Assembly: GCA_010093605.1 (NCBI GenBank)
Contig: MU004181.1
Location: 1,612,001 to 1,676,000 of the forward strand
Origin: Lophium mytilinum
Lineage: Eukaryota; Ascomycota; Dothideomycetes; Mytilinidiales; Mytilinidiaceae
DNA: 64,000 nucleotides
Direction of reading: 5' to 3'
Numbering within the stretch: position 1 is the first letter of the stretch; every line of letters begins with the position of its first letter. The position numbers and the translations under genes were made by a program. Shown here piece after piece: positions 526 through 61,929 of this stretch. The notes beneath the pieces are model-generated. The model ran no database searches and was not told the origin of the DNA. It worked only from the letters and a program-made list of their open reading frames with translations.

Positions 526-1235
526 CTACCCTCGTCTCCCCATAGGAGTCTCATGAAACGCACTACCAGGAGTCCCATATCTCCTCCGGCTCCCAGGTGT
601 TCCCGACACCCCGCTCCTGCTCCCAGGCGTTCCCGACACGCCCCTCCCGCGCCCACCCTCACCACTCCTCACCGCGGTAATCTTTCCCCCAGGGCCTATA
701 ACCCACGGCGCGCTGGAGAGAGCATACGGTGACAGTCCCTCTCGTATCATCTCATGAAACACCTGAAAGAGCTTCGTATCATAGAATTCGCCGCGATGGT
801 CAACTACCCCCCATATCTTGTTAGCCCACCATATTCAACTCTCTTTAGATGCTTTCTGATGATGCACGAGACTCACGCTTCGCTTGTACAACCTGCACGT
901 TATAGTCCGGCACAAAGCCCCACCGCACCGGGCGCTGCGCCGTCGGCTCCGTCATCACGTCCATACCGTTGGCTTTGTAGGTCGTGACGACGTCGGCGAA
1001 GAAGGCGTCGAAGCGGGGGTGGAGTTTGAATACGTAGCGGTCCCTTTGGTTTGGTTGGATTAGCGACGTGAAGAGGTGAGCTAGGTTTGGGGGAGGGGAA
1101 GTGGGCGTACCAGTTTCCGCGCCTGGAACTGGCGACGATGGTCCAAGTGATATCCTGCTGTGCGGGAGGAAGAGCAGAGGCGAGTTGGGGCGGGCCGAGA
1201 GCTTTCCATTTCTCTTTGTAGGAGATGCGGGCCAT
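526..1235 (-). CDS. hypothetical protein, three exons
   Basis: I do not recognise this gene. A coherent 189-residue protein comes from three exons: 1235-1111, 1043-877 and 803-526. Intron 1 (67 nt) runs GTACGC to AAAG; intron 2 (73 nt) starts GTGAGT, has a GCTAAC branch site and ends GGTAG. Phases match (2, then 1) and no stop interrupts the spliced frame. The protein starts MARISYKEKWKAL and has a compact, well-mixed core through about residue 145 (WDRYVFKLHPRFDAFF, then VRWGFVPDYNV and FHEMIREGLSPYAL), so it looks like a folded domain. The last 45 residues are a Gly/Arg/Ser-rich tail with repeats of GTPGSR. No signal peptide or membrane segment is visible. The next gene is on the same strand upstream. 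The core without detectable low complexity suggests a conserved fungal family, but I cannot name it. Confidence 0.65.
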
Positions 1236-4554: not shown

Positions 4555-7500
4555 CGCGTGAAGAAGCCGTCAGCGACTTGGTCGGCCGCAACTGCTTCAC
4601 AAAGCCACAGCAGGAACATCGAAGGACCCACAGAGTCTGGTAATCACATCGGGAAGCGCGATGAGATTCATCGCTACGATGCCCAGACTGCAGTGAGCAG
4701 CACGTGAATGCCACCGAAACCATTTCGTGGAAAAGACTTGAGGCTAATCAAATGTGGTGAAATCATTGTGAAATAGGTATAACGGAGATGAAAGATGACT
4801 AGTCAAAGAGAGCGCGAACTGTGGACGAGACACTAAAATCATTGTCGAAGTTGAAGGAGCATTCCAACCTTGGAAGTGAAATGTTCCCAGGTGCCAAAGT
4901 GAAAAGAGCCACATTTGGGGTCCCAGCCCGATATTTCGCTGGTCCTAAGTAAGGGCTTAAAGAGTAAATAATTTTGGCAGGTCTCCAATCAATGTATTCA
5001 GCAGCTTCCGGTCGGTCGCCACCCTGGGGGTGTAAGCCATACGTTGCCTGTCGCCGAGGGTTCGATTCCCGAAGTAGTCAGAGACGGACAAAATGTAATT
5101 GCACTTGATAAAAGGCTGCATGGGTTTCGTAGTGGAGGCGGCCCGATCCTGAAGTGATTTAATGGGGTCCGCTACGACAGTCAGGGTGGGGGCTGTCTGA
5201 GAGGTAAGTCTTATTTTGGTAAGTTATTTTTCTTTTTGCCTGGATCAGGTTGGGACGGAAGGGTAGCGATGATGTGACCTTAATTCACCGATATAGTCAC
5301 AGACTGAGGTGAGTTCTCGGCTGCTAAATGCGCTTCTGGTAGCAGTGCTACCTATATACACGGTTGAGAACGAGAAATACGGTCCGTTACCGCTGTAGGA
5401 CGAGTTGAGGTCAGATACGTCGGAGCACAAACCCCGAAGAGCGGAAATGAGATGTACTGGTGTTTCTGTTCCGAAGGTTGTTGCAGTCTTACAGCTACGG
5501 TATCCCCAGCTGCATCAAGACTAGAGGCTGGATAAGATGGATTTCAGGAAGAGACGTGCAGCAAGGACGCTGTGCGAGAGATGTGGTCTCGGGGACGTGC
5601 ATAATTCGGCGATCCCGCTAAGGGCTCGCGACTATTCCAATCTTGGGATGCACAGAAGGTACACAACACAGGCACTGGGCATTGATAATCGAGACGGATA
5701 TAGTTGACCAGGTTTGTACCCATTGCACGCGGAATAAAGTGTGCTTTTAGACAAGAGCATGAATCCCCTACTCTCCGTTTACTCAATGGAATTCTCTCTT
5801 TCTTCACGTGACCTTCCATACAGCTCCTGAGCCAACTATTTCATGTTTCCAGTACGCGTGCTTACTTGCACGCCTACGCAGAACCTTCTGCCAATCGACT
5901 CAACTCAATCAGTAATCCATGGCAGAGTATTGGGCTCACAAATGGAGCTGCAAAGACCACGAATAGGGAACTATAGTAAGATTCACGGATCGATGTAGAG
6001 ACAAACACGCACGACAGCTACGAGATGGAACGAAAACCCGCCGTTTGAATCTATTATCTTTCGAAGAGCACATGTTGAGAAAGAGCAATCACAGGGTGTT
6101 GTATCCCGCCCTCCCCAACGCAGCATTAGCGACAGTCATCGCAGGCGTTATAGTCGCAATGTTTCCAGAGGATGACCAGGTTAGCAGTAGTAGTAGTTGC
6201 GAAGGAGGTTAGTAGGAGTCAAGATGCCTTCATGGTGGTAGTCACTAGAGGGGATGACCCGAGAAGCCTCGGGATGTGATTGAGCTACCTGCTCTTGCCG
6301 AGCGTTGAAGGCCCCTCTCAAAATCAAATTTCCACAGTGAAGCGAGATGAGGCTCTGTCGTATAGGAAGGAAGTGTTTCGTCGAAGACCTGATCTGTCAC
6401 AACTCGGCGCATGAGCCTATGAAAAACCTTTGGACACAATTCGTAATATCAGATTGGATATAGGAGGCGGACGAAGAAAGATACATGAGAACAACAAGAA
6501 CGGCGATTACGAGGGACGCCTACCTGCCACGTGCCTGCGTCATTGCGACTGTACATGAGGGGAGGGGAGAGTAGCCGGATGTCAGATCCGAGAGTTGTGG
6601 TCAATCCTCCTTCCAATCAGCAGCAAGCGTGGGAAGATGAAGGAACTGCAGTTCACGATGAGGTCGTGATAGCGGTCTGCATCCTGGTCCTCCGATTGCC
6701 GTGGGATCCCGGGCTCGTCATACGAATTGTCCGGAGGAAGTCGCTATTCATAGCTTGTCCCGATGACAACATGCGATGAATTTCTTCCGGTGGTTTGAGA
6801 AGAAATGAGGAGAGCGGAACGTGTTCGTCGGCGACGAGGGTGGCTTGTTATTGCAGGGCTTGAGCGAATAAGACGCAGAATCCTGGCAATCTGGCGAAGT
6901 GCGGGATGCTTCACAGTGGTCCTCGTGCAGCCGTCCCCGCTTTGCATCTGGAGACCCGGATGGCGGTGAGGGCGCGGGCCCGTCGAGGGACATGTCGTGA
7001 AGATAGCCGTCCACAGCAGCATCACTGTACTCTCTTGCTGGGTTGTAGTTGCACGGTACCGGTGTCCGTGGCAAAAACACGAAGCACCAGAAGGCCGATT
7101 CATGGGGAGGCCGTATCGAGGCCGGGGACATGCTACATAGACTGCACGCACGGCCGGCCCAGGCTCAGTCATCTCGCCGTGGCATCAACTCCAGACACGC
7201 CAGGCTGCCTGGCTATTTCGGGCGCAGGAGAGGCAGGCCGATGATCAGAGAGAGCGACAGTAGATGACTGGGTACGATGTCGACGGTGGTTGCGCAACCC
7301 AACGGCGTGCTCGGGTTGAGCCCGACCCCACAGCGGCCTCATCGCGGCGTGCCTCTGGTCTTCTTTCTTTCTTCGGGATCGTCGTGGCCGGCTCCTCGTG
7401 GGCGGGCGTGGTGGCGGATGCGTTTCACCAGTGCTCGCGGCTTGGCCTATTGCGGGCTACGCTCGACGGGACAATGCCCCTGGAGCGGGCCCATAACGCC

Positions 7501-22787: not shown

Positions 22788-24772
22788 TCATCTTATCCAA
22801 AAGTCCTCATATTCTTCTTCGCCAGCTTCGACGGCCCGAACGGCCTCACCACGCATGGTCCGAGGAACGTATGCTTCTCCGAGCAGAATGTACTGATCCC
22901 CTTCTTGCCGAAGTACGACAGGAACTGTGCATCCTCGAAGCACACAAAGCTTGTCTCCGGGCGCAACATCTTCCGGGCCTAATCCACATTCTCCATGAAT
23001 GTGTCCTTGAATGTACCGGACTTCAGGATTCGGGCTTGGTTTCATCGTCGCCGGCATGAAATAGAACATACTGCGGTGAAAGTGTATGGACATAAGGTTG
23101 TCGATCAGATGAGGGTTATATTCCGCCTGGCAGTTTTGCAAGCTCCCACTGCCATCAGCGTGCAACCAGCTCGCCAGCTCCGAAAGTGTTGGTCCCCTCG
23201 GTTCTAGCCAGAACGCGGCGATGAATCCAAGCGTGCTCGGATACTCTGACAACAAATTGAATGACTGCCATGCCAATCTAAAATGAGCCATCCAAATCTT
23301 GAAGTCTAGATCCGCCGTGGGCTTATCTAAAACGAAGAGTTCATTGCCAACGTTGCGAGGAGGGGAAGAAAATGATGGTGCCGTGGCTTCAATGGTCGCG
23401 ACCGTCTTTCCTCTGACATGAAGCACTGTACCATCTTCAGTAAAATCAAGGACACTTGGAAGAGATCCTCCGGCGCACCAGTCCCCTGGATTCTTGTCTT
23501 CTATAGCACTAATAGTACCTAGAGTCCTGCTAGAAACTGTCGTAGGTTCCATCAACGACCAAACCCACGAAGGTATTCCATACTTAGGGTCGTAACCCAT
23601 TCGGGGGCCGAGAAGCATGTCCAATCCTTCTTCTTGTATCAGTAGACGCATCATGGAATTGATGACTTCAGGTAGTGTCTTTGAGTAGTCCACTTGGATT
23701 TGCTGTCGAATAGAAGGATGGAAACAACTGTAGTAGCCAAAAACCTTGTCTCTTCGATCCGTAGAACGCTTCAGCTGTGCCGAACGCCACTGTCGCAAGC
23801 TCAGGTGTTTACCATTCCTTGCTGCCCCGCGAGCTGGTATGACTTCATCAATCATCAGGTTTGTTGAATGCGCCAGAGTTGCCAATAAGTAGGTTTCCGG
23901 ATCTACCGAGCTCTGCGGTATGGCTTCCACGTCTTTGGGTGACTTTGCGAAGACAGCGCATATTTCTCGCATACAGGCGAAGAATTCATCGTAGCCAAGA
24001 GTATGTTGACCATACATTAGAAGCGCTTTATCAGAGAAGAGGATCTCCTGGACGACCCAGATTCTCTTCCAGTATTCTAGCTTAAAGATACGATTCATCA
24101 TGCTCAGGATCCCCCTCTTGACACTAGTGTTTTGAGTAGTGAATCCTGTTCGCCATACGAGTCGATCAGTCTCTGTGAGCTCAGAATAAGACTTCAAAAG
24201 CTCGAATGTGAGACTTATCAGGTCGTCTGTCGCCTCACCCAGCCAGATCAGCGTTGATGTTGCGTTCGCATAGACATCAGACATCATTTTGACTTGTTCA
24301 TTGCGCTCTTCTATGTGAGTCTGATTGATTGCTACGGCATCGGCCCAAACCACGCGAAAGCTTTCTGAGAGGCGAAGGCGCGACAGAGCGGAATGCAGGT
24401 TTGACGTGACATGCCAAGTGACTTCGTCGAGGAGTATGGTTTTAGGTTCATTCTGACTGCCCCCTATGATGTACTTAGCGCCTACATCTAATGAAGTTAA
24501 AGCTACACATACTTACAAACATATGACAAAGCCTCATAGTCTGGTAGGTCTCCATCATGGACACTGAAACTCGAGCATTTAACTACACTTGGCTCGGCTC
24601 CAGGGTGAATCTTGATCAGACGGAGCTCCCTGCTCGCAAGCTGTTTTCTGTAAACCGTTTTTGCAGCATCCGAGTTCAGTTCTCCGAGTGTAGCTACGAG
24701 CTTTGGTGCTGATACTGGCTGTTTTGGAGATGCACTGCAAGCCGGCTCAACAGAATCCAGCTCTTGCTCCAT
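22788..24772 (-). CDS. heterokaryon incompatibility (HET) domain protein
   Basis: Two exons (24772-24517 and 24463-22788) joined by a 53-nt intron, GTAAGT to CATAG, give 643 residues. The splice restores the first HET block exactly: YEALSYVWG at about 79-87, then WADAVAINQ at about 125-133 and the QVKMMSDVYANATSTLIWLGEA block. These are the three conserved blocks of the fungal HET domain, which triggers cell death when unlike strains fuse; most family members have no tested role. The C-terminal ~400 residues have no motif I recognise (RDKVFGYYSCFHPSIRQQIQVDYS is the usual post-HET segment). The start chosen is the first in-frame ATG (MEQELDSVEP); the frame is open upstream only through non-ATG codons. 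The gene looks intact, unlike its convergent BTB neighbour. Confidence 0.88.
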
Positions 24773-25690
24773 GGAAACAGTGATGTTCGTTGATACTAGC
24801 GCCAACTACTGGTTCAACTCTTGTTTCTAGTGAACGCACGCGGTGAATCTACCTACGTCACCCGACGGAATTTGGCCACTTGTGGAGCTCTGATTGATGA
24901 GCTAATCCATAATGCACTTTGTGGTGCAGTTACTATGTATAATTTAGTGCAGGTGCGGGGTAGTCGGTGGCACTAATCTCAAGAAGCCACGCAGCTTTCA
25001 AGTGGAATATCTTGTTTAGCCACAGGATCTTGAAGGGAAACCGACCTAATGTAAGACTGGAAGTTACCCTGAATATTAACGTCGAGTTGTGGCCTGCGTT
25101 AAAACTAACGCTAAACGCTGTCTATAGCCAAATCCACCCAATTTGTCGACTCTGGAAGAATTGTTCATTGGCGAAACAGTGCCTGTGCGCCCTCAAGTTT
25201 TTGCCCTCTTAATCACTTCCCCGTCCTTGAGCTCATTTGGCTTACAACTCAACTACTGTTTAATCAAGATGGCTCTCCGGTACACCTCTATCTAGGCCAC
25301 CAGCTTGTTCGTCTTCGCCTAGAATAGAACCCTAGTCAGGACCCCAAGTCTCCACGTTTGTTAAACAGGCTGCATTGATAACGACACCTCTTAGATTGAA
25401 GGGCGGGTCGGCAATTGATGGAAATAATGGCGAAGAAATAGAAAATCCGGCATTTACGAAGACTCTCACTGTGGACTTTGATTGCTACTGGCTTCAGGAT
25501 CTTGTAATACACGAAACAGACATGAGGCTCGTCACCTCACCTCACTACACCAGACTTTCTACGTCTTCTATCCAGACTACCTAGTTCTTCTACAATTCGT
25601 CCACTTATTTCCTGCCTCATCTCGCCATCCTTTAACGATCATCATCCTTATTAATCATCACCACCCGTCCACCACTATTTCTATGCATTG
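24773..25690. other. no gene seen
   Basis: Promoter side of the HET gene and anonymous sequence. Short ORFs only. Nothing repeated elsewhere in the window was noticed. Confidence 0.35.
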
Positions 25691-26899: not shown

Positions 26900-27403
26900 T
26901 CACTCCCGTTCAAAATGGGCTGCTGCGATCCTCCATCGCTCGTACACTCTGTGCCCTAACCACCTCTGGCAAAAAACCCAACATGCTCTCCTATTGTGTG
27001 GAAAGTGAAAGTTCATTCGGCCTCCACTAGGGCGCTTCAGCCTATGTTCGGATCCATGACCCTTCACCGAAGATATTTCCCAGCCAGCGGCCTCGAACGC
27101 GGCAACTATCGCCTCCCATCTCAGATTTGGATTGCAGCCGGACCCATCTCCGAATTTGAGGATACTGTGGAGGTCCTCGAGATGCTTGCCTCGCCTGACC
27201 TTGTATAAGACTCCGTTTGGTTCCACGATGTCGTCTTCGTCGTCGTCATTCTCGGTTTGGTCGTCATAGTTCGCGAATGGTAGTTCGGCAAACGCTGTTT
27301 TGGTGTCTCGAATTGCCTTCTTTCTCTCCTTTACGTTTGTTAGTACAGTAACAAGCCACAAGTCTAGGCACACTGGTACGCCACTGCTTGGGGTCCCCGG
27401 CAT
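26900..27403 (-). CDS. orphan protein whose 5' end lies in a miniature transposon
   Basis: A 167-residue ORF. Roughly the first 20 codons, including the ATG at 27403, are inside the element at 27346-27571. The host part begins around NVKERKKAIRDTK, has an acidic run (DDQTENDDDEDDI) and then a compact C-terminal domain: PNLRWEAIVAAFEAAGWEI, GSEHRLKRPSG, NFHFPH. That GSxH...P.G...F..PH layout recalls the small alpha/beta domain seen at the end of many fungal orphan proteins and loosely the HicA fold; this is only a resemblance. The true start is uncertain because the element may have replaced or moved it. Its stop is 18 bp from the ATG of the GIY-YIG-like locus on the same strand. Confidence 0.4.
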   Translation of the reverse strand: MPGTPSSGVPVCLDLWLVTVLTNVKERKKAIRDTKTAFAELPFANYDDQTENDDDEDDIVEPNGVLYKVRRGKHLEDLHSILKFGDGSGCNPNLRWEAIVAAFEAAGWEISSVKGHGSEHRLKRPSGGRMNFHFPHNRRACWVFCQRWLGHRVYERWRIAAAHFERE

Positions 27404-27571
27404 GGTTTCGAAGACTTAAGGGCGATGTCAAGCTTCAACCAGTGCAGATTAGACTGCCTCTTGACTAATTGCCTGCTCAGCAGCCAGGCTACCCCTAACA
27501 GTGGTGTCGAGTGAGCAGATTGGAGATAAACGGGATTCAGTCCGTGTGCCCAGACTTATGGCCTAGTACTG
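27346..27571. mobile_element. Tc1/mariner-type miniature inverted-repeat element (MITE)
   Basis: A 226-bp element with long imperfect terminal inverted repeats of about 31 bp. Left end starts CAGTAACAAGCCACAAGTCT; the right end reads inward CAGTACTAGGCCATAAGTCT; both continue with a GGCACAC motif. It is flanked on both sides by TA (27344-27345 and 27572-27573). CAGT ends plus a TA duplication are typical of Tc1/mariner elements. There is no transposase, so it is nonautonomous. Its core (27371-27508) is shared, inverted, with 2859-2997. The stop codon of the upstream orphan ORF (27563-27565) and the start codon of the downstream one (27403) both lie inside it. Confidence 0.75.
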
Positions 27572-29107: not shown

Positions 29108-29835
29108 CGTGGAGACGAGACGCTACGCGATGTTATGAATTGCTTTGGACTTGGAGGTAGTTGAGGGCTTACTGCGGCGCGGGGCTGTGAATTGCTGTAG
29201 ACTTGGGGTGATGAAGGGCTGGTAGCGGCGCAGCCTCGTGAATTGCGGCTCTCGGTTGCTTCTTGCAGTTGTTGCAGGCGAACAATCACTAATTTCGCTG
29301 CATCATCAGGCGCTATCCAGGTGTTGTTCTTCGGGGAATGAATCCGTCGCAAGAGTTGTAGCGGGAGGTCATGATGGATATGGATAAGCGGGGGGTAGGC
29401 GTATGGCTACGCGCTACGACAGGGCGGACGAGGCTGCAAAGCGACGCGGAGTAAATTGATCGAAGTGGTTCCCGGTGTGAGCCGTTGCCTATGCCGCGAC
29501 ACTTCACCAATGGTTGGTCTACCGATTACCGGAGTATCCGGCATTCGAATAACGATAATGAAGGGTCTCAAAGGATAAAAACCTGAGTTCAAAACATGCG
29601 TGTGGTGATGAGTGTTGGTAAACGTGCACTGAAGTCCCCGCCTCTAGCGAGGCCCATTACCCACCTGCAGCTTTCGTGGACCACAAAAAAGCGGAGACAC
29701 TAAGCGGCGCACCAAGCGTTCTTTGCATGTGAAATCCTGCAAGTTTCACAGCATGGGTGTACAGGAAAGTGCAAGTAGCAGTGTGAGTGCTATAGAATAT
29801 ATACTCAAAAATTGATACATTCCTTAACAACAACA
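29108..29835. other. intergenic, upstream of the tRNA gene
   Basis: Contains the possible 5' exon of the preceding minus-strand gene (to about 29350) and otherwise no gene. No repeat noted. Confidence 0.35.
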
Positions 29836-29842
29836 TCCTTGA

Positions 29843-29853
29843 TGGTCTAGTGG
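29843..29853 (+). promoter_or_regulatory. Pol III A box of tRNA-Asp
   Basis: TGGTCTAGTGG, matching the TRGYNNARNGG consensus, in the D arm region. Confidence 0.7.
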
Positions 29854-29900
29854 TCATGATTTCCGCTTGTCAAAGCAGTCTGCTTAACAAGCGCGGGAGA

Positions 29901-29956
29901 GTAAGCAACCACCGCAGCCATTGCCTGATTATCAATCATGCTAACGGATGTCACAG
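29901..29956 (+). other. 56-nt spliceosomal-type intron in the tRNA variable loop
   Basis: Starts GTAAGC, contains GCTAAC at 29940-29945 and ends TCACAG. These match the donors, branch sites and acceptors of protein-gene introns in this window: GTAAGC is used by introns in the arrestin, SEA4 and bZIP genes, and GCTAAC by introns at 804-876, in MOT1 and in the arrestin gene. 56 nt is a typical intron size here. Precise removal joins GGAGA to CCAGG and gives a normal 4-nt variable loop. The insert has no run of four T, so Pol III would not stop in it. That it is spliced by the spliceosome is inference. Confidence 0.6.
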
Positions 29957-29960
29957 CCAG

Positions 29961-29971
29961 GGTTCGATTCC
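29961..29971 (+). promoter_or_regulatory. Pol III B box of tRNA-Asp
   Basis: GGTTCGATTCC, a perfect B box. The A-to-B spacing is stretched to over 100 bp by the two inserts; TFIIIC tolerates variable spacing in long tRNA genes. Confidence 0.8.
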
Positions 29972-29991
29972 CTGTCAGGGAGTAATTATTC

Positions 29992-29996
29992 TTTTT
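29992..29996 (+). terminator. Pol III terminator
   Basis: TTTTT ten bases after the end of the tRNA. Confidence 0.7.
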
Positions 29997-36600: not shown

Positions 36601-39600
36601 GAGGATCTGGTTCCCAAACTCCAGGTTGTTCGTACGCAATGTCAGGCGCTTATCAGCGCGTTTAGAGACGCCCACGTTACAAGTCTGCCACACCTCGCCG
36701 TGGTTGTGCAGGGCGATCCGGGCGCTAGCGTGTATGCCTTCTCCGTCCTTGATGGCGAGAAGCTTATCGGAGTGCAATTTGACAAGGCTAAGAAGGCGAT
36801 GACTCCTGCCCAGCGCTTGGTGTCCTTGACCAATCTAGAGACCCTCAGACTGGATGTGGAAAGCTCCCTCAATGAAATCAAGGATATCAAAGAGAGCCGC
36901 GACATTCGCATCAAATCAGCGGCTGCAGGTGCCCTTGTAGCACTGAACCAAGCGCCAAAGAAGCCGGCCCTGGCCATTAAGGCCATTATGGATAGCATCA
37001 AGAAGGAGGAAAATGCCGAGCTTCAGAGACGCTCTGCTGCTGCGGTGGCTGCGTTGATCAATCATCTTGTGGAAACTGGGAAGCTTACCATCGTCAACAA
37101 GGTCGTGGGCAACCTCGTCAAATTTTACTGCATGGAAACTGCAGAGACGCCGGAGTTCCATGCCAACGCGGGTATCGAAACGGGTATCCTGTCTCTCAAG
37201 AAAGAGGAGGACATCCGAGACCATCCGGATGCCGCCAAGTTCGAACAAGATGCTCGTGCAGCCCGCATTCAGAAGCGTGGAGCCAGGGAATCCCTCGAGC
37301 TGCTAGTAGAAATATTTGGCAGTGGGATCTTCGAGAAAATCCCCAAGCTTCGTGAACTAATCCAGAATCCTATTGAAAAAGCATACGAGCGCGAAGCGTT
37401 GCCTACCGACATCCTCGAACCAGACAATAGCTTCGGGCAGGAGGTTATCGATGCATTATCGACACTGCGAGCTCTGGTTGGCAAATTCCATCCTGATGTC
37501 CTGGACTTCGTCAAGAACCTCCTACCTCTCATTGCCAAGGCTCTGCAATCTCGGCTGTACGTGCTTAGGTATGCAGCAGCCAAATGCTTTGCTACGATCT
37601 GCAGCGTTATGACCATCGATGGTATCACTATGCTGGTAGAGAAGGTTCTCCCATCTATCAGCAATCCTATCGACGTGCACTACCGACAAGGAGCCGTGGA
37701 ATGCATTTACCACTTGATACATGTCATGGAGGATAGTATCCTGCCGTATGTCATTTTCCTAATTGTTCCGGTGCTTGGTCGGATGAGCGATTCAGACAAC
37801 GACGTGCGCCTCCTTGCGACCACGAGCTTTGCAACTTTAGTCAAGCTTGTTCCTCTTGAGGCTGGTATACCCGATCCGCCTGGGCTATCGCCAAAGTTAC
37901 TTGAGGGCCGGGATCGGGAACGTAAATTCATCGCACAGATGCTCGACGCGAAGAAGGTCGAGCCTTTCGAGATACCCGTTGCGATCAAAGCTACTCTTCG
38001 TTCGTACCAGCAAGATGGCGTCAACTGGCTTGCATTTCTCAATCGCTACCACCTTCACGGCATCCTGTGTGATGATATGGGTCTAGGCAAGACACTTCAA
38101 ACTTTGTGCATAGTTGCCAGCGATCACCACCTACGAGCAGAAGAATATGCCAAGACTCAGGCTCCTGATGTCCGCCGCATGCCCTCCCTTATTGTTTGCC
38201 CTCCCACGCTTTCTGGTCACTGGCAGCAGGAAATCCGACAGTTTGCGCCGTTCCTCACCGCTGTGGCATACGTCGGCCCCCCTAACGAGCGGTCGAAGCA
38301 CATTGAGAAGCTCGGCCAAGCCGATGTTGTCATCACTTCCTACGACATTTGCCGCAACGACATAGATATCCTTGCGCCGCTGAATTTCAACTACTGCATC
38401 CTAGACGAGGGCCATCTAATCAAGAACGCCAAAGCAAAGACGACCTTGGCCGTTAAACAGCTGAACTCTAATCATCGCCTTATTCTGTCCGGTACTCCGA
38501 TCCAGAATAACGTCCTTGAGCTCTGGTCTCTTTTCGATTTCTTGATGCCAGGCTTCCTCGGCACTGAGAAAGTCTTCCAAGATCGCTTCGCCAAACCCAT
38601 CGCAGCGTCTCGTTTCTCCAAATCTAGTTCGAAAGAGCAAGAAGCTGGTGCACTTGCTATAGAGGCGCTGCACAAGCAGGTCCTACCTTTCTTGCTGCGT
38701 CGTCTCAAAGAAGAAGTGTTGGATGATCTGCCACCCAAGATCCTTCAAAATTACTACTGCGATCTTTCCGACCTGCAACGGAAGCTCTTCGAAGACTTCA
38801 CCAAAAAAGAAGGCAAGGCTCTTGCCGAGAAGGCTTCTGGTGAAGACAAGGAGAGCAAACAGCACATCTTCCAAGCCCTTCAATACATGCGCAAGCTTTG
38901 CAATTCCCCCGCTCTTGTCATGAAACCGGGACATAAGCAGTGGGACACTACACAGAATTTCTTGAAGAGTCATGACACTGACATTCGGGATATCGCTCAC
39001 GCACCGAAGCTCACAGCTCTCAAGGATCTCTTGGTAGACTGTGGCATCGGCACCGAAAGCGCCAGCACCAGTAACGGAAATGCAGGTGCTATGCCTGGCG
39101 ACCTCCCTGAAGCCGTGTCTCAGCACCGCGCGCTTATCTTCTGCCAAATGAAGGAAATGCTGGATATGGTGCAGGTTGAGGTGTTGAATAAGCTGCTACC
39201 ATCGGTGCAGTACATGAGACTTGACGGCAGCGTCGAAGCCTCCAAACGCCAGGACATTGTCAACAAATTCAACTCCGACCCCTCCTACGACGTCCTACTC
39301 TTGACAACTAGCGTTGGCGGTCTCGGACTAAACCTCACAGGAGCCGATACCGTCATCTTCGTGGAGCATGACTGGAACCCGCAAAAGGATATCCAGGCCA
39401 TGGACCGCGCTCATCGCATCGGTCAGAAGAAAGTCGTCAACGTCTACCGCATCGTCACGCGCGGCACCTTGGAGGAGAAAATCCTAAAGTACGTAGCCCC
39501 CTTCCCATCCCCCATTCATATACCTATCTCTTCACAACACGTATACTAACATGCCATCCCACAGCCTCCAACGCTTCAAAATCGACGTGGCGAGTACAGT

Positions 39601-41127: not shown

Positions 41128-42514
41128 CTATGAGCCCAGGCTGGGGAACGCCGTGGTGTCCGAGAGGTTGACAGCAGCGGACTGGCCACCGCGGCCGCCT
41201 CTGCCACCACGGAAGTCGCCACGTCCCTCGCCGCGACCGCGTCCACCACCTCGTCCGCGTCCCTCGCCTCGGAAGCCGCCCTCGCCACGACCACGGCCAC
41301 CACGACCACCGCGTCCGCCGCGGAAAGAGTCGCTGGGCTCCTTGTGGAGGCGCTCGTTGTCGAGCTCGACAATAGTCTTCTCCTTGCGCTGGCGCTCGCG
41401 CTTGGCCTTGCCGCCGGAACCGGCCACGTATTCCTCCTCTTCCTCCTTGGTGAGGGGCTTGCCTTCGGGGAACTTCTTCGTGCTGCCTTCGTTGGCCTTG
41501 CGCACCTCGGGGGATCCAAGGTTGAGCTTCTTCTCCGCCTGCTCGGCGAGCCACGCCGTGTACGACTTGGTCTTGTCCTCCTCAGGCTCCTCGGCAGGTG
41601 CGGCGGCTTCAGCGCCAGCGTTCTCGTGGGCGAAGGGGTCGGCGGGCTGAGCGTCGGCGTTCCAGGCTTGGTCGGATGATACGACGCCCTCGGCCTTCTC
41701 CTCCTCCTTGGCAATAGCTTCGCCAGCCTTCTCGTCGGCCCATTCATCGCCGCCGGTCTGGCCACCCCAGCCGTGGGCAGTCTGCTTGTCGTGCTCACTG
41801 CGAGATGAAACGTTAGCGTACCCTCTGGATAAGTTATGGCGAGATACATACGCTATGCCGGTTCGGCTGTGACGGTCTCCATTACCGCCGCGACCGCGTC
41901 CACCACGGCCACGTCCACCGCGGCCACGATATCCAGACTCGCCAGATTCTATTGATGTTTAGCGATTGATGCAGGGATGAGGGCGCTGATATAAGGTACC
42001 TCCAGATGCCCTGCTGCGGTTCTGGTTGCCGTCACCTCCTCGATTCCGGAAACCTGTAAACCAAGCATGTCAGCGAGAGTTCTCGCACGACCTTTCGAGG
42101 CCATTGTTTCTTTTATTGAGCTGCCAAGGCGGTCTCCCAGCACGTACCTCCATCATTGGAGCCTCCTCGGCTGGCGCGGGCGTCACGGACAGGCGGTTCA
42201 GCGGGCGTGTTGCGCTTGCCGGCTCTCGCGACAGGCTTCTCAATTGCCTTGGCTGGTGGATCGGGGGCTCTGTCGGGGTCGAGCTCGGGGTCGTTCCCTA
42301 CAAACGAGACGTGTCAGATGGAGCTGCGAGATGGAGCTGCGGTCCAGTGTGATGGTGAAATGTACCTAGGAGCTCGAACAGGTTCTGCAGCGCGGATCGT
42401 CAGTACCAATGCGTCTTGAGAGGGTGGTAGATGAGCTCTGTGATGCTCAATGGCGGCAGCAACGGCTGCGAGACCATGGGGGCGTGGACTGACCTTGGAT
42501 GCGATGCCCGACAT
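41128..42514 (-). CDS. Stm1/HABP4-like RNA- and ribosome-binding protein
   Basis: Six exons (42514-42494, 42384-42366, 42297-42148, 42053-42000, 41948-41852, 41797-41128) give 336 residues. All introns are 51-109 nt with good signals and matching phases. The protein starts MSGIASKNLFELLGNDPELDPD, the Stm1-type N-terminus; then PPAKAIEKP, an RGG/GRGG patch (GYRGRGGRGRGG), an acidic Ala/Glu region, the HABP4_PAI-RBP1 core (KSYTAWLAEQAE, KKFPEGKPLTKEEEEEYV, AKRERQRKEKTIVELD) and a C-terminal RGG box of about 60 residues ending TAFPSLGS. Yeast Stm1 and animal SERBP1 bind the 80S ribosome in the mRNA channel and protect dormant ribosomes, so this is likely cytoplasmic and abundant. The small 5' exons (21 and 19 nt) resemble those in MOT1. 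Long antisense ORFs across the G/C-rich RGG codons are composition shadows. Confidence 0.92.
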
Positions 42515-58961: not shown

Positions 58962-61929
58962 TTATTTCAATAGCCCACACATGCACTGACAATCGGGAAC
59001 CGGGCACATTGCATGCCGTGCAAACCAATCCCTCGCATGGTGCCCATGAAATCCATGCGTACATCTCATACAAAATACCATCAGCCTCGTCTCCGAATCC
59101 TCTTCCGCAAGCGCTGCGGCTGCTCCTGGCTTCGCAGGATCTGGGCTCCCGAGCCACATCATACACAGTCCGCACCGAGGCATTTGAGCTCCACAGTTGG
59201 GGCAGGATAGACTTGTTCCCGCGTTCTGACGGCTGAGGAAGCGTTTGCTCGGAGGAGTGGGTTGGTGCGGGTCCGCAACGATATAGTCTCGTTTGCTCTT
59301 GTTATCGCGGCGTAGGGCGAGGTTCATCTGGCAGTTGTGGCAGCGGACTGACAATGCAGGTGATGAAGGTTTATTCAACGATCGGTTTTCGCGTGTAACA
59401 GATCGTAAATTGTGTTCTTTGATGAAATGAGTCCGTTCCAGGAATGTTCGCCAAGTCTGCATCTGCGACAAATATGTGTCTTTCCAGAGTGACCAACGGG
59501 AGTCGTTGATATACAGCGGATTGGTGCGTGCCATGGCAAGAACGGCAGTCTGTATGTCGCCGAACTTAGCAATGTAATGCTCGAAGATGTTCATCGCTTG
59601 TTCAGTAAGGCCAGTCAGGATCAGTCCCTCGACGTTGCCGTATACAATTGCTTCGCTCTGGGCAATGTGGAGGAAAGATCCAAGACGTTCGTCATCCAAA
59701 TATTTGAGGGCAACTCCAACGCGGTCAGTCAGGGATAATTGCTTCATATCAGTAACGGTGCTCCACTCGCCGCTAATGAAGTATGCCAGCAGCGCTTTCA
59801 GATATGGATCGTCTGTTTCCTCAGCCATCCAAGAGCACATGTGTCGTTGCTCATCATTGACCGAGTCGCAAGCAATGACAGCTGCAAGTCCAATGGTGTG
59901 CAGCAACTTCTGCTGTATGGCATATCTTAAAAGATCTAAGGCAACGTCCTTGTAACCTTTGAAAACGGCGAGGACGATGGCTTTGTGATATTCGCCCCGA
60001 TCCATAAGTGCCATGCACTTTTCGCGTAGCCCTTTCGTAGATAGGTTCCATCCGCAAATAGAAAGACAGAGTTGCCGATGCTCTGGAAAACTTGTGTGGA
60101 CGCCCTGAAATTCGGGAAATTCCATCTCTTTGCAGATAACCTTAACTGCTGTCACGAAGGTGGATTTTGATGGTTCTTCCACATCAATAACCCGTTGATC
60201 AATTGAGCCGAGCTTGTTGGACCATATCGAGCTTACACCCAGGTAAGTCAGATCGAGACCATTCGCTATCATGCCATCCTCGTATGCCAAAACATCCAAC
60301 CTTGAAATAAGGCCCCACATATCAACTAACCACGGATCGTTGGCAACAATCTTTTGGTTCTTTCGACAGTCCATGTTGTAGCCTTCTTGACATCTTCTCT
60401 TATGAGTCTCAAGCACCTTCAAAACATCTGAAAGCTTGACTCTCACATCTGGGAAGGCAAGAGTGAGCAGATCCTCATGGAGCTCCCTGCTTGAATGGTC
60501 AGAGGATTGAATATTGATCGCTGATGGTGTTCGTCTCGGCTGGTCGATGGAGAATTTATCTAAACGCTCAGACAAATTTTCCTTAGGGTTCGGAGTCACT
60601 GCGTGTTTCTCGCCCAGGGCTTTGTTTTGGAGGATTGTTAAGTCTTCCGCAACGGTCCCATGCCTCTGGCTTGGCTTAGCGATCATTTCACGGTTCTTGT
60701 ATATTTCATCGAGCACCGTCACGTTGATACGGGCTGCTGGAGCAGGAACCCTCAATAGCTCAACATCCCGGTTTGGGCGAAGAGCAAGTGCACATTGTCC
60801 GCTGATAGGACTACCCACGTTCATGAAATCACACGCTATGACGCGCGTGCCTTCGTTTTGCCCGTGTCGTTCGTCGTAGTATGGATATTGCAAATTGTGC
60901 GAAGTCTTCGTATAATGGGGAGAAGTCCATGATGAAATGCCCTGAGGAGGAATCTGCGTGAGATGGGACTCGATTTTGTGCGAATGTTGCGCAAGCTCGA
61001 CAACCTTCAGTTCTCCTGTATTTGATAGCACTCCGAAGGATGCTCTCCTTGTGCCGGAAAACCGAAGGCTCCAAATGGTTGCAGACTGGGTATTGTCTAC
61101 CACAGGTCGGATCTCGAGCACAGCACCGGTCTGCGATGCTTCTCCAGGGGTGCCCGGCGTGGAGCGTGTGGCGAAACGTTTATCCCAAACGCTTACAGCC
61201 GGGTCGCCAGTGGGCCCCGCTGATATGAAATAGTTCTCGTCGAGCGGATCTATCGCTACGTTATGGACTTGACGAGTTGGAAATTGAGCCGCACCAGATC
61301 CTCCGGAATCTACGCATTTCATGTCAGTTTTCTCGTGAAAGGCGCCTGAACAGGCGTGAGTAGTGGTAAATTTCAGCTAGCTTACCACGCAAATCGTACA
61401 ACCGAATGCATTGTCGAGAGACCCCTGCAATCAGAGTATCCGGCTGGCCAGTAAAGAATTTGATGCTTGTGATAGCTTCTGAGCTAGCCAGCTTCCTATA
61501 CGGTTCTTGTAGAGCCGCAACAGACGGAGTATTAAGATCATAGATATTCATACAAAAATCATTACGCACTCGATCCAAACCTGTTGCCAGGCAGTTCTTA
61601 GCGCTGAAAGCTATCGAGTTACACTTTCTTTGATGTTTGATGGAGAACGTATGAATGTACTCGGAATGCGGCCGGTCGGCATTGATCTCAACCACAGTCG
61701 CTTCACCAGACGCAGACCCCAAGGCGACGATATGCTCGTCTTTCTTGGACCAGTCGAAGGCGGTGAAGTTTGGGAGTTTATCTCGTTGACAAAGCTGCTT
61801 GTACTGTACTTTGCCTTGGTCGAAGGAGTCGATCTGACATAACCGTAATCGATTTCCCGCAACATCAATGATGAGAAAACGAGGTTTCTGCTTCGTAGAA
61901 TGAGGCGACCATCTGATAGCTGCTTCCAT
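58962..61929 (-). CDS. SEA4: SEA4/MIOS, SEACAT (GATOR2) subunit
   Basis: Two exons, 61929-61386 and 61309-58962, with a 76-nt intron (GTAAGC to GCGTAG) give 963 residues. The start MEAAIRWSPH and the N-terminal WD40 repeats (DWSKKDEHIVALGSASGEATVVEI, RQCIRLYDLR, NYFISAGPTGDPAVSVWDKRF) are typical. A helical solenoid follows, and the C-terminus carries a RING-like zinc module: CHNCQMNL, CPNCGAQMPRCGLCMMWLG, FCMRCTHGFHGHHARDWF and CPVPDCQCMCGLL. That layout defines Sea4/Mio. Known role: part of the vacuole-associated SEA complex that relieves GATOR1 inhibition of TORC1 when amino acids are present. The 307-bp gap to EFG1 is a shared divergent promoter. Confidence 0.95.

Follow-up and report, generated by a model that had tools for sequence, protein, structure and literature searches.

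Can a nuclear tRNA gene be interrupted by an intron of the kind that the spliceosome removes from mRNA? The question is raised by a locus of Lophium mytilinum lying in a 64,000-nt stretch of DNA, the whole of which was analysed and is referred to here as the window. The original prediction had described a tRNA-Asp gene with one insert of 19 nt at position 37/38 and a second, of 56 nt, that carries mRNA-type intron signals. Sequence reading, cmscan and ARAGORN agreed with it base for base on the locus, the coordinates and the insert lengths (Table 1). The 19-nt insert was present at 29873-29891 and the 56-nt insert at 29901-29956, the latter with GTAAGC, GCTAAC and CAG beginning at 29901, 29940 and 29954, respectively. 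The locus is probably (roughly 70%) an intact nuclear tRNA-Asp(GTC) gene, transcribed by Pol III, whose 37/38 site has an ordinary 19-nt intron and whose variable loop is interrupted, between positions 46 and 48, by a 56-nt U2-type spliceosomal intron. At this single locus, the anatomy of the sequence argues strongly for that reading.

Table 1. Coordinates of the features of the tRNA-Asp(GTC) locus in the window, and of tRNA-Gly(TCC) genes that have the same D arm
Feature	Position	Strand	Remarks
tRNA-Asp(GTC) gene with two inserts	29836..29982	+	147 nt, 72 nt without inserts; cmscan RF00005, ARAGORN after removal
Exon 1, tRNA positions 1-37	29836..29872	+	anticodon GTC at 29869-29871
19-nt intron at 37/38	29873..29891	+	UUGU/ACAA anticodon-intron helix, 2-nt bulges in model
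Exon 2, tRNA positions 38-46	29892..29900	+	C38, stem 39-43, AGA
56-nt U2-type (GT-AG) intron-like insert, variable loop	29901..29956	+	
5' splice-site motif GTAAGC	29901..29906	+	
Branch-site motif GCTAAC	29940..29945	+	12 nt after branch A; fits fungal RCTRAY as given in part of PMC5832005
3' splice-site motif CAG	29954..29956	+	
Exon 3: C48, T arm, 3' acceptor strand, discriminator G73	29957..29982	+	
A box TGGTCTAGTGG, Pol III internal promoter	29843..29853	+	judged by eye
B box GGTTCGATTCC	29961..29971	+	judged by eye
TATA-like box TATATA at -38	29798..29803	+	
T5 run, Pol III terminator-like, starting 10 nt past tRNA	29992..29996	+	
tRNA-Gly(TCC) with D arm GGTCTAGTGGTnATGATTTC	L011 698-769, L013 7557-7628, L014 3741-3812		Hermodarchaeota-named records

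The locus was matched end to end by the RF00005 model in cmscan (29836-29982, + strand), with two inserts and a score of 33.2 bits, the gathering cut-off being 29 bits. The E-value was 5.3e-05 over 801 bases and 0.0042 over the whole window with permissive filters. A default scan of the whole window at the Rfam gathering cut-offs did not recover the locus, and the permissive scan of the window gave, besides the tRNA-Asp gene, only a chance match to a flavivirus model (E 1.9). ARAGORN reported zero tRNAs across the whole window when introns were disallowed, and an uninterrupted Asp-like tRNA pattern had 0 matches in the window.

Removal of both inserts left 72 nt, as had been predicted, and ARAGORN called this product tRNA-Asp(gtc). 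The predicted cloverleaf arms form in it: 20 of 21 stem pairs are present (acceptor 7, D 3/4, anticodon 5, T 5), and the sole exception is a U.U at 13-22. The residues that confer Asp identity (G10-U25, G34, U35, C36, C38 and G73) are all found in the product. The 15-mer GTCACGCGGGAGACC, which extends across both junctions, is identical to human tRNA-Asp_GTC_2-1 as printed in a passage of PMC12217144, and it is also contained in a GTC tRNA quoted in a passage of PMC4189335. These human comparators were reached by text search with the 15-mer itself, the matches being, by title, work on human tRNAs or tRNA fragments. What was established directly is the sequence, the structure and the signals of the locus, and that its joined junctions agree exactly with conserved tRNA-Asp.

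Identity between the 72-nt product and human tRNA-Asp_GTC_2-1 was 58/72. Eight of the 14 differences make up four two-sided changes that keep a pair, two are one-sided changes in stems, and four are unpaired. One of the one-sided changes keeps its pair and the other yields the U.U at 13-22; pairing was thus kept by two-sided change in 4 of the 6 stem pairs that differ. Such compensatory changes, judged from this alignment, show long-standing selection as a tRNA and not selection since the insert arrived. The D arm GGTCTAGTGGTnATGATTTC, its 13-22 mismatch included, is common to the fungal tRNA-Asp and to tRNA-Gly(TCC) genes of Hermodarchaeota-named records (68.3 bits).

With introns allowed, ARAGORN read the raw sequence in another way, as a poor 77-nt tRNA with a single 70-nt intron. 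The explanation that corresponds to this reading is one long canonical intron of about 70 nt, which would be cut out at once from 37/38 by the endonuclease (TGTCA-AACGG). The resulting tRNA, however, has a C31.A39 mismatch, a 9-nt variable loop and A in place of C38, and it loses the 15-mer common to human tRNA-Asp. The cmscan alignment has two inserts. The single 70-nt intron was rejected on these grounds, and we give it very little chance.

Pol III signals are in place, as judged on sequence: an A box, a B box, a TATA-like box and a downstream T run. The A box and B box were judged by eye against their consensus sequences. TATAWA was found in 0.5% of 25-nt stretches of the window and T5 in 1.2% of 20-nt stretches, either strand being counted in both cases. 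No T run exceeds 2 nt in the 56-nt insert or 3 nt in the whole gene. By its stem pairs, compensatory changes and Pol III signals, the tRNA-Asp gene looks intact and alive.

The 56-nt insert could also be an intron of a Pol II transcript, either a long non-coding RNA or a 5' leader, that contains the tRNA sequence and from which no tRNA is made. The locus is overlapped by no reading frame of at least 120 aa and is situated upstream of a SET-domain gene on the + strand, as this explanation would have it. However, the intron ends fall exactly where tRNA-Asp is restored, a coincidence not to be expected if a Pol II intron lay there by chance, and the locus has Pol III signals. A Pol II-only intron was rejected for both reasons and is highly improbable.

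The shorter insert raises no difficulty as to position, since 37/38 is the canonical site of eukaryotic tRNA introns. In the structure model, UUGU/ACAA is predicted to form 4 of 4 pairs beside the anticodon stem with a 3' bulge of 2 nt; if the bulges are fixed at 3 nt, 2 of 4 pairs would form.

The 56-nt insert looks like a U2-type spliceosomal intron in its sequence. GTAAGC fits GTRNGY, GCTAAC fits RCTRAY, and CAG fits YAG. The branch A is followed by 12 nt, which is inside the 6-36 nt ahead of the acceptor where the RCTRAY branch site is located according to a section of PMC5832005. We estimated how often such a combination arises by chance. With fixed ends, GTRNGY plus CTRAY (8-25 nt after the branch A) plus YAG occurred in 7 of 1,000,000 sequences under each of two Markov models, a figure to be read with the facts that this strict pattern was chosen post hoc, when the insert had already been seen, and that the original prediction had selected the insert by these very signals. 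A looser pattern occurred by chance in 13 and 30 per 1,000,000 in the two models. When 18 equal-length placements were allowed, the chance figure was about 1e-4. Among the 127,890 56-mers of the window (both strands), one had the strict pattern, namely the insert at 29901-29956, and three had the loose pattern.

Candidate introns from genes of the window were sought by reading frame together with GT, branch and AG motifs, and the best of a longer list were retained. Thirteen of them were joined; 11 were hand-picked and used, and two (60149-60236 and 41782-41851, both on the - strand) were dropped as unconvincing. The 11 introns measure 49-76 nt, and their last branch-like motif stands 9-24 nt from the end. 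The 56-nt insert is within both ranges, an agreement that is partly circular because the motifs served to find the introns. Close to its 3' end, the Mot1-like helicase gene (from 34009 onward) is interrupted by an intron, 39489-39564 (+; GTACGT...CTAAC...ACAG), whose junction is exact in comparison with PDB 7z7n, the solved chain most similar to the helicase, which we take to be Mot1 of Chaetomium. Three further junctions lie inside Pfam matches, two in a sugar transporter and one in a GMC oxidoreductase. The junctions of the arrestin-like and WD40 models were not pinned by Pfam matches, and the remaining five introns were placed by frame and motif only. The claim that the signals of the insert are used by other genes in this window was borne out by three introns: GTAAGC also starts the candidate intron 61310-61385 (-), GCTAAC is also found within the candidate intron 804-876 (-), and ACAG also ends the homology-checked Mot1 intron 39489-39564.

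We tried 595 deletions for the second insert, and 18 of these gave a 72-nt product. GT-AG ends were present in 1 of the 18 placements and in 2 of the 595 deletions (29901-29956 and 29901-29960). Removal of the GT-AG insert gave the highest identity to human tRNA-Asp among the 18 products of 72 nt (58, followed by 57 and 57). The ARAGORN structure score was tied at 121.9 for eight removals, that of the GT-AG insert included, and was 122.7 for one other. The ends that cmscan itself gave to the second insert were a few bases away from the GT-AG ends, and the posterior was lower there. Structure alone therefore does not pick the ends of the insert. The ends of 29901-29956 slide 0 nt in either direction.

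Just before the 5' splice site the exon has A in place of G. When folding was constrained to the cloverleaf, both splice sites were predicted to be mostly open and the GCTAAC branch site to be partly paired (G and C 2-5% unpaired, the As about 50%). For the unspliced RNA, a misfold was predicted to be 8.8 kcal/mol better than the cloverleaf; for the mature form, a misfold was 2.9 kcal/mol better. The A at the exon end, the partly paired branch site and the 8.8 kcal/mol misfold would speak against easy splicing.

Removal of the insert by the tRNA splicing endonuclease was also considered, as an ectopic tRNA intron in the variable loop of the kind cut by this enzyme in archaea, Cyanidioschyzon and cryptomonad nucleomorphs. 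Precedents appear in the accessible text of PMC3978253 and PMC4033280, which places such introns in archaea (one of them in a variable loop) and in a few algae; many ectopic introns of Guillardia also have no defined motif, according to the same text of PMC3978253. The would-be central helix at the borders of the 56-nt insert has 3 of 4 pairs. However, at least 3 of 4 central pairs were found in 15% of random placements, and pairing amounts to 1 of 4 in the outer helix and to 2 of 4 in the inner helix; a bulge-helix-bulge at these borders was rejected. The helix would moreover draw on bases of the anticodon stem, and the yeast endonuclease is described as strictly a 37/38 enzyme in a passage of PMC4033280. 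The GT-branch-AG signals would be left unexplained, and the chance of this explanation is close to negligible.

The original prediction had left two possibilities side by side, a Pol III transcript that needs two different splicing machines and a recent introner insertion into a tRNA gene. The former is favoured, on sequence grounds, by the U2-like insert, the GT-AG ends that restore tRNA-Asp, the Pol III signals and the lack of an endonuclease signal at the second insert. The latter found no support in the window. A blastn search with the 56-nt insert found no similar copy within the 64-kb window, the best partial matches being 9-13 nt, and the fold of the insert is ordinary (z 0.19). Target-site duplication is a feature of introners of the DNA-transposon type; none was found at 29901-29956, where the slide is 0 nt and the sequences spanning the two ends (18 and 20 bases) have no 4-mer in common.

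The main rival to a living gene is a recently interrupted, non-functional copy, that is, an intron or introner that entered one of several tRNA-Asp genes, is not spliced, and left a pseudogene that has not yet decayed. Fungi usually have several tRNA-Asp genes, so the loss of one could be harmless. The non-standard pair at 13-22 and the failure of the default Rfam scan to report the gene also fit a pseudogene. However, every stem pair beyond 13-22 is unbroken, the junction-spanning 15-mer is the same as in human tRNA-Asp, and the Pol III signals have been retained. The splice signals are near consensus, so that contact with the spliceosome should take the insert out. We regard a dead copy as unlikely.

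Relatives of the gene were sought in several collections. In the window, blastn with the whole gene gave 8 weak matches besides itself. The best of these, 25352-25381 (-; 80% over 30 nt, E 0.025), covers the anticodon arm and the first intron, not the second insert, and is possibly a chance match or a scrap of a tRNA. The 5'-half sequence had 0 matches in the full text of papers. In viral contigs, the joined-junction pattern and the 5'-half pattern each had 0 matches, and the interrupted-junction pattern had 10, none of which, by eye, coincided with a tRNA; one ARAGORN tRNA was present among these ten loci (L008), with no overlap to the pattern match. A search of prokaryote genomes for relatives that would reveal fungal contamination gave 6 matches and no fungal relative. 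Three of the 6 lie within the intact tRNA-Gly(TCC) genes of the Hermodarchaeota-named records L011, L013 and L014; a match in L012 was discarded as a tRNA relative, being no tRNA by eye.

Some archaeal loci met in this search are recorded here in their own right. Candidatus Hermodarchaeum yapensis (L016, about 1284-1376, -) has the same tRNA-Gly(TCC) with an insert of about 30 nt in the T loop, as judged by eye; ARAGORN and Rfam were silent on it. This is perhaps a T-loop archaeal intron in one species, absent from L011, L013 and L014. An Aenigmatarchaeota record (L015, about 5664-5790, +) contains a tRNA-like sequence with apparent inserts, by eye, in the anticodon region and the T loop, on which ARAGORN and Rfam were likewise silent. 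Rfam tRNA matches of 104-105 nt and 54 bits, with no ARAGORN call, were found at L011 2372-2476 (-) and L014 2034-2137 (+); they are perhaps intron-holding archaeal tRNAs.

Two other genes of the fungal window were recorded in passing. A reading frame at 26900-27412 (-) has a weak match to HicA_toxin (PF07927, E 3e-05), its 24.5 bits being below the curated cut-off of 27; a bacterial toxin-antitoxin-like domain would be unusual in a fungus. A HET-domain (heterokaryon incompatibility) gene (PF06985, E 7.6e-23) is located at 22788-24509 (-); this domain, the style of the introns and the similarity of the helicase to 7z7n suggest a filamentous ascomycete.

For the gene with two introns, we propose the following path. 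Pol III would start upstream of 29836 and terminate at the T5 run. Folding of the acceptor and T arms would be followed by end trimming; since both arms form, the ends should be trimmable. In the nucleus, the spliceosome would remove 29901-29956 and join ...GGGAGA to CCAGGG..., so that the spliced junction would read ...GCGGGAGA then CCAGGG.... The tRNA splicing endonuclease and ligase would excise 29873-29891, probably after the spliceosome step, because the tRNA splicing endonuclease of yeasts is cytosolic. The end product would be a normal 72-nt tRNA. Transcription, both splicing steps, the order of the steps and the function of the tRNA-Asp gene are what we infer from the features described above.

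A broader proposal is tentative, and we place it somewhat below even odds: spliceosomal introns may have entered nuclear tRNA genes in this fungal lineage, at least one Asp decoder may need both the spliceosome and the tRNA endonuclease, and such genes may have gone unseen because finders assume at most one intron, located at 37/38. The locus points to a blind spot in tRNA finders, in that ARAGORN and the default Rfam scan missed or misjoined the tRNA-Asp gene. PMC8450103, the paper on tRNAscan-SE 2.0, describes a single intron as the limit for tRNA genes of eukaryotes and its search for noncanonical introns as part of the archaeal mode. In view of these limits, similar genes may be misjoined or missed. 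If the proposed reading is true, the adaptor RNA of translation would be coupled to the mRNA splicing machine. It would also be a case of exactly bounded intron gain in an RNA that is constrained at nearly every base, and hence a test bed for intron origin. In the open full-text literature, none of the matches listed was, as judged by titles and the starts of abstracts, an account of a tRNA gene with a spliceosomal intron; subscription papers and preprints lie outside this literature.

Among known systems, the ectopic tRNA introns of archaea, Cyanidioschyzon and the Guillardia nucleomorph are alike in lying outside 37/38. For eukaryotes, a section of PMC3978253 gives Cyanidioschyzon and the Guillardia nucleomorph as cases of ectopic tRNA introns, and a title cited there places one Thermofilum intron in the variable loop. 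They are unlike the present insert in that the tRNA endonuclease cuts them out, usually by way of a bulge-helix-bulge, although the same source mentions many Guillardia introns without a defined motif. GT-branch-AG signals are not described for them in the accessible text of PMC3978253 and PMC4033280. The introner-like elements of Dothideomycetes, as presented in part of PMC4457414, are alike in offering a route to spliceosomal intron gain in fungi; the available main text of that paper makes no mention of tRNA or rRNA. The present insert differs from these elements in having no repeat copy within the window, no special fold and no target-site duplication.

The fungal U6 snRNA genes, of S. pombe and others, are closer in kind: their product is a small structured RNA made by Pol III, and their intron is removed by the spliceosome. 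Tani and Ohshima, as well as Canzler et al., reportedly described mRNA-type introns in fungal U6 genes. U6 is unlike a tRNA in that it belongs to the spliceosome itself, and it is easy to picture reverse splicing close to the catalytic centre as the source of a U6 intron. We know of no second, endonuclease-cut intron in U6. A passage of PMC8917221 describes the U6 of S. pombe as made by Pol III and interrupted by an intron of the mRNA type. Fungal U3 snoRNA is alike in its canonical GT-AG introns and RCTRAC branch site, and unlike in that it is not a tRNA and its intron shares no transcript with a tRNA endonuclease intron. Among the fungi with U3 introns, Baudoinia is a Dothideomycete. In the available part of PMC5832005, canonical GT-AG introns with an RCTRAC branch site are reported for U3 in most of the Pezizomycotina examined, and two introns per U3 gene in three species, Baudoinia included. 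According to the same part of this 2017 paper, frequent interruption by an intron was known for no small structured RNAs other than U3 and U6. If the proposed reading is true, a tRNA would be added to this short list of small structured RNAs processed by the spliceosome.
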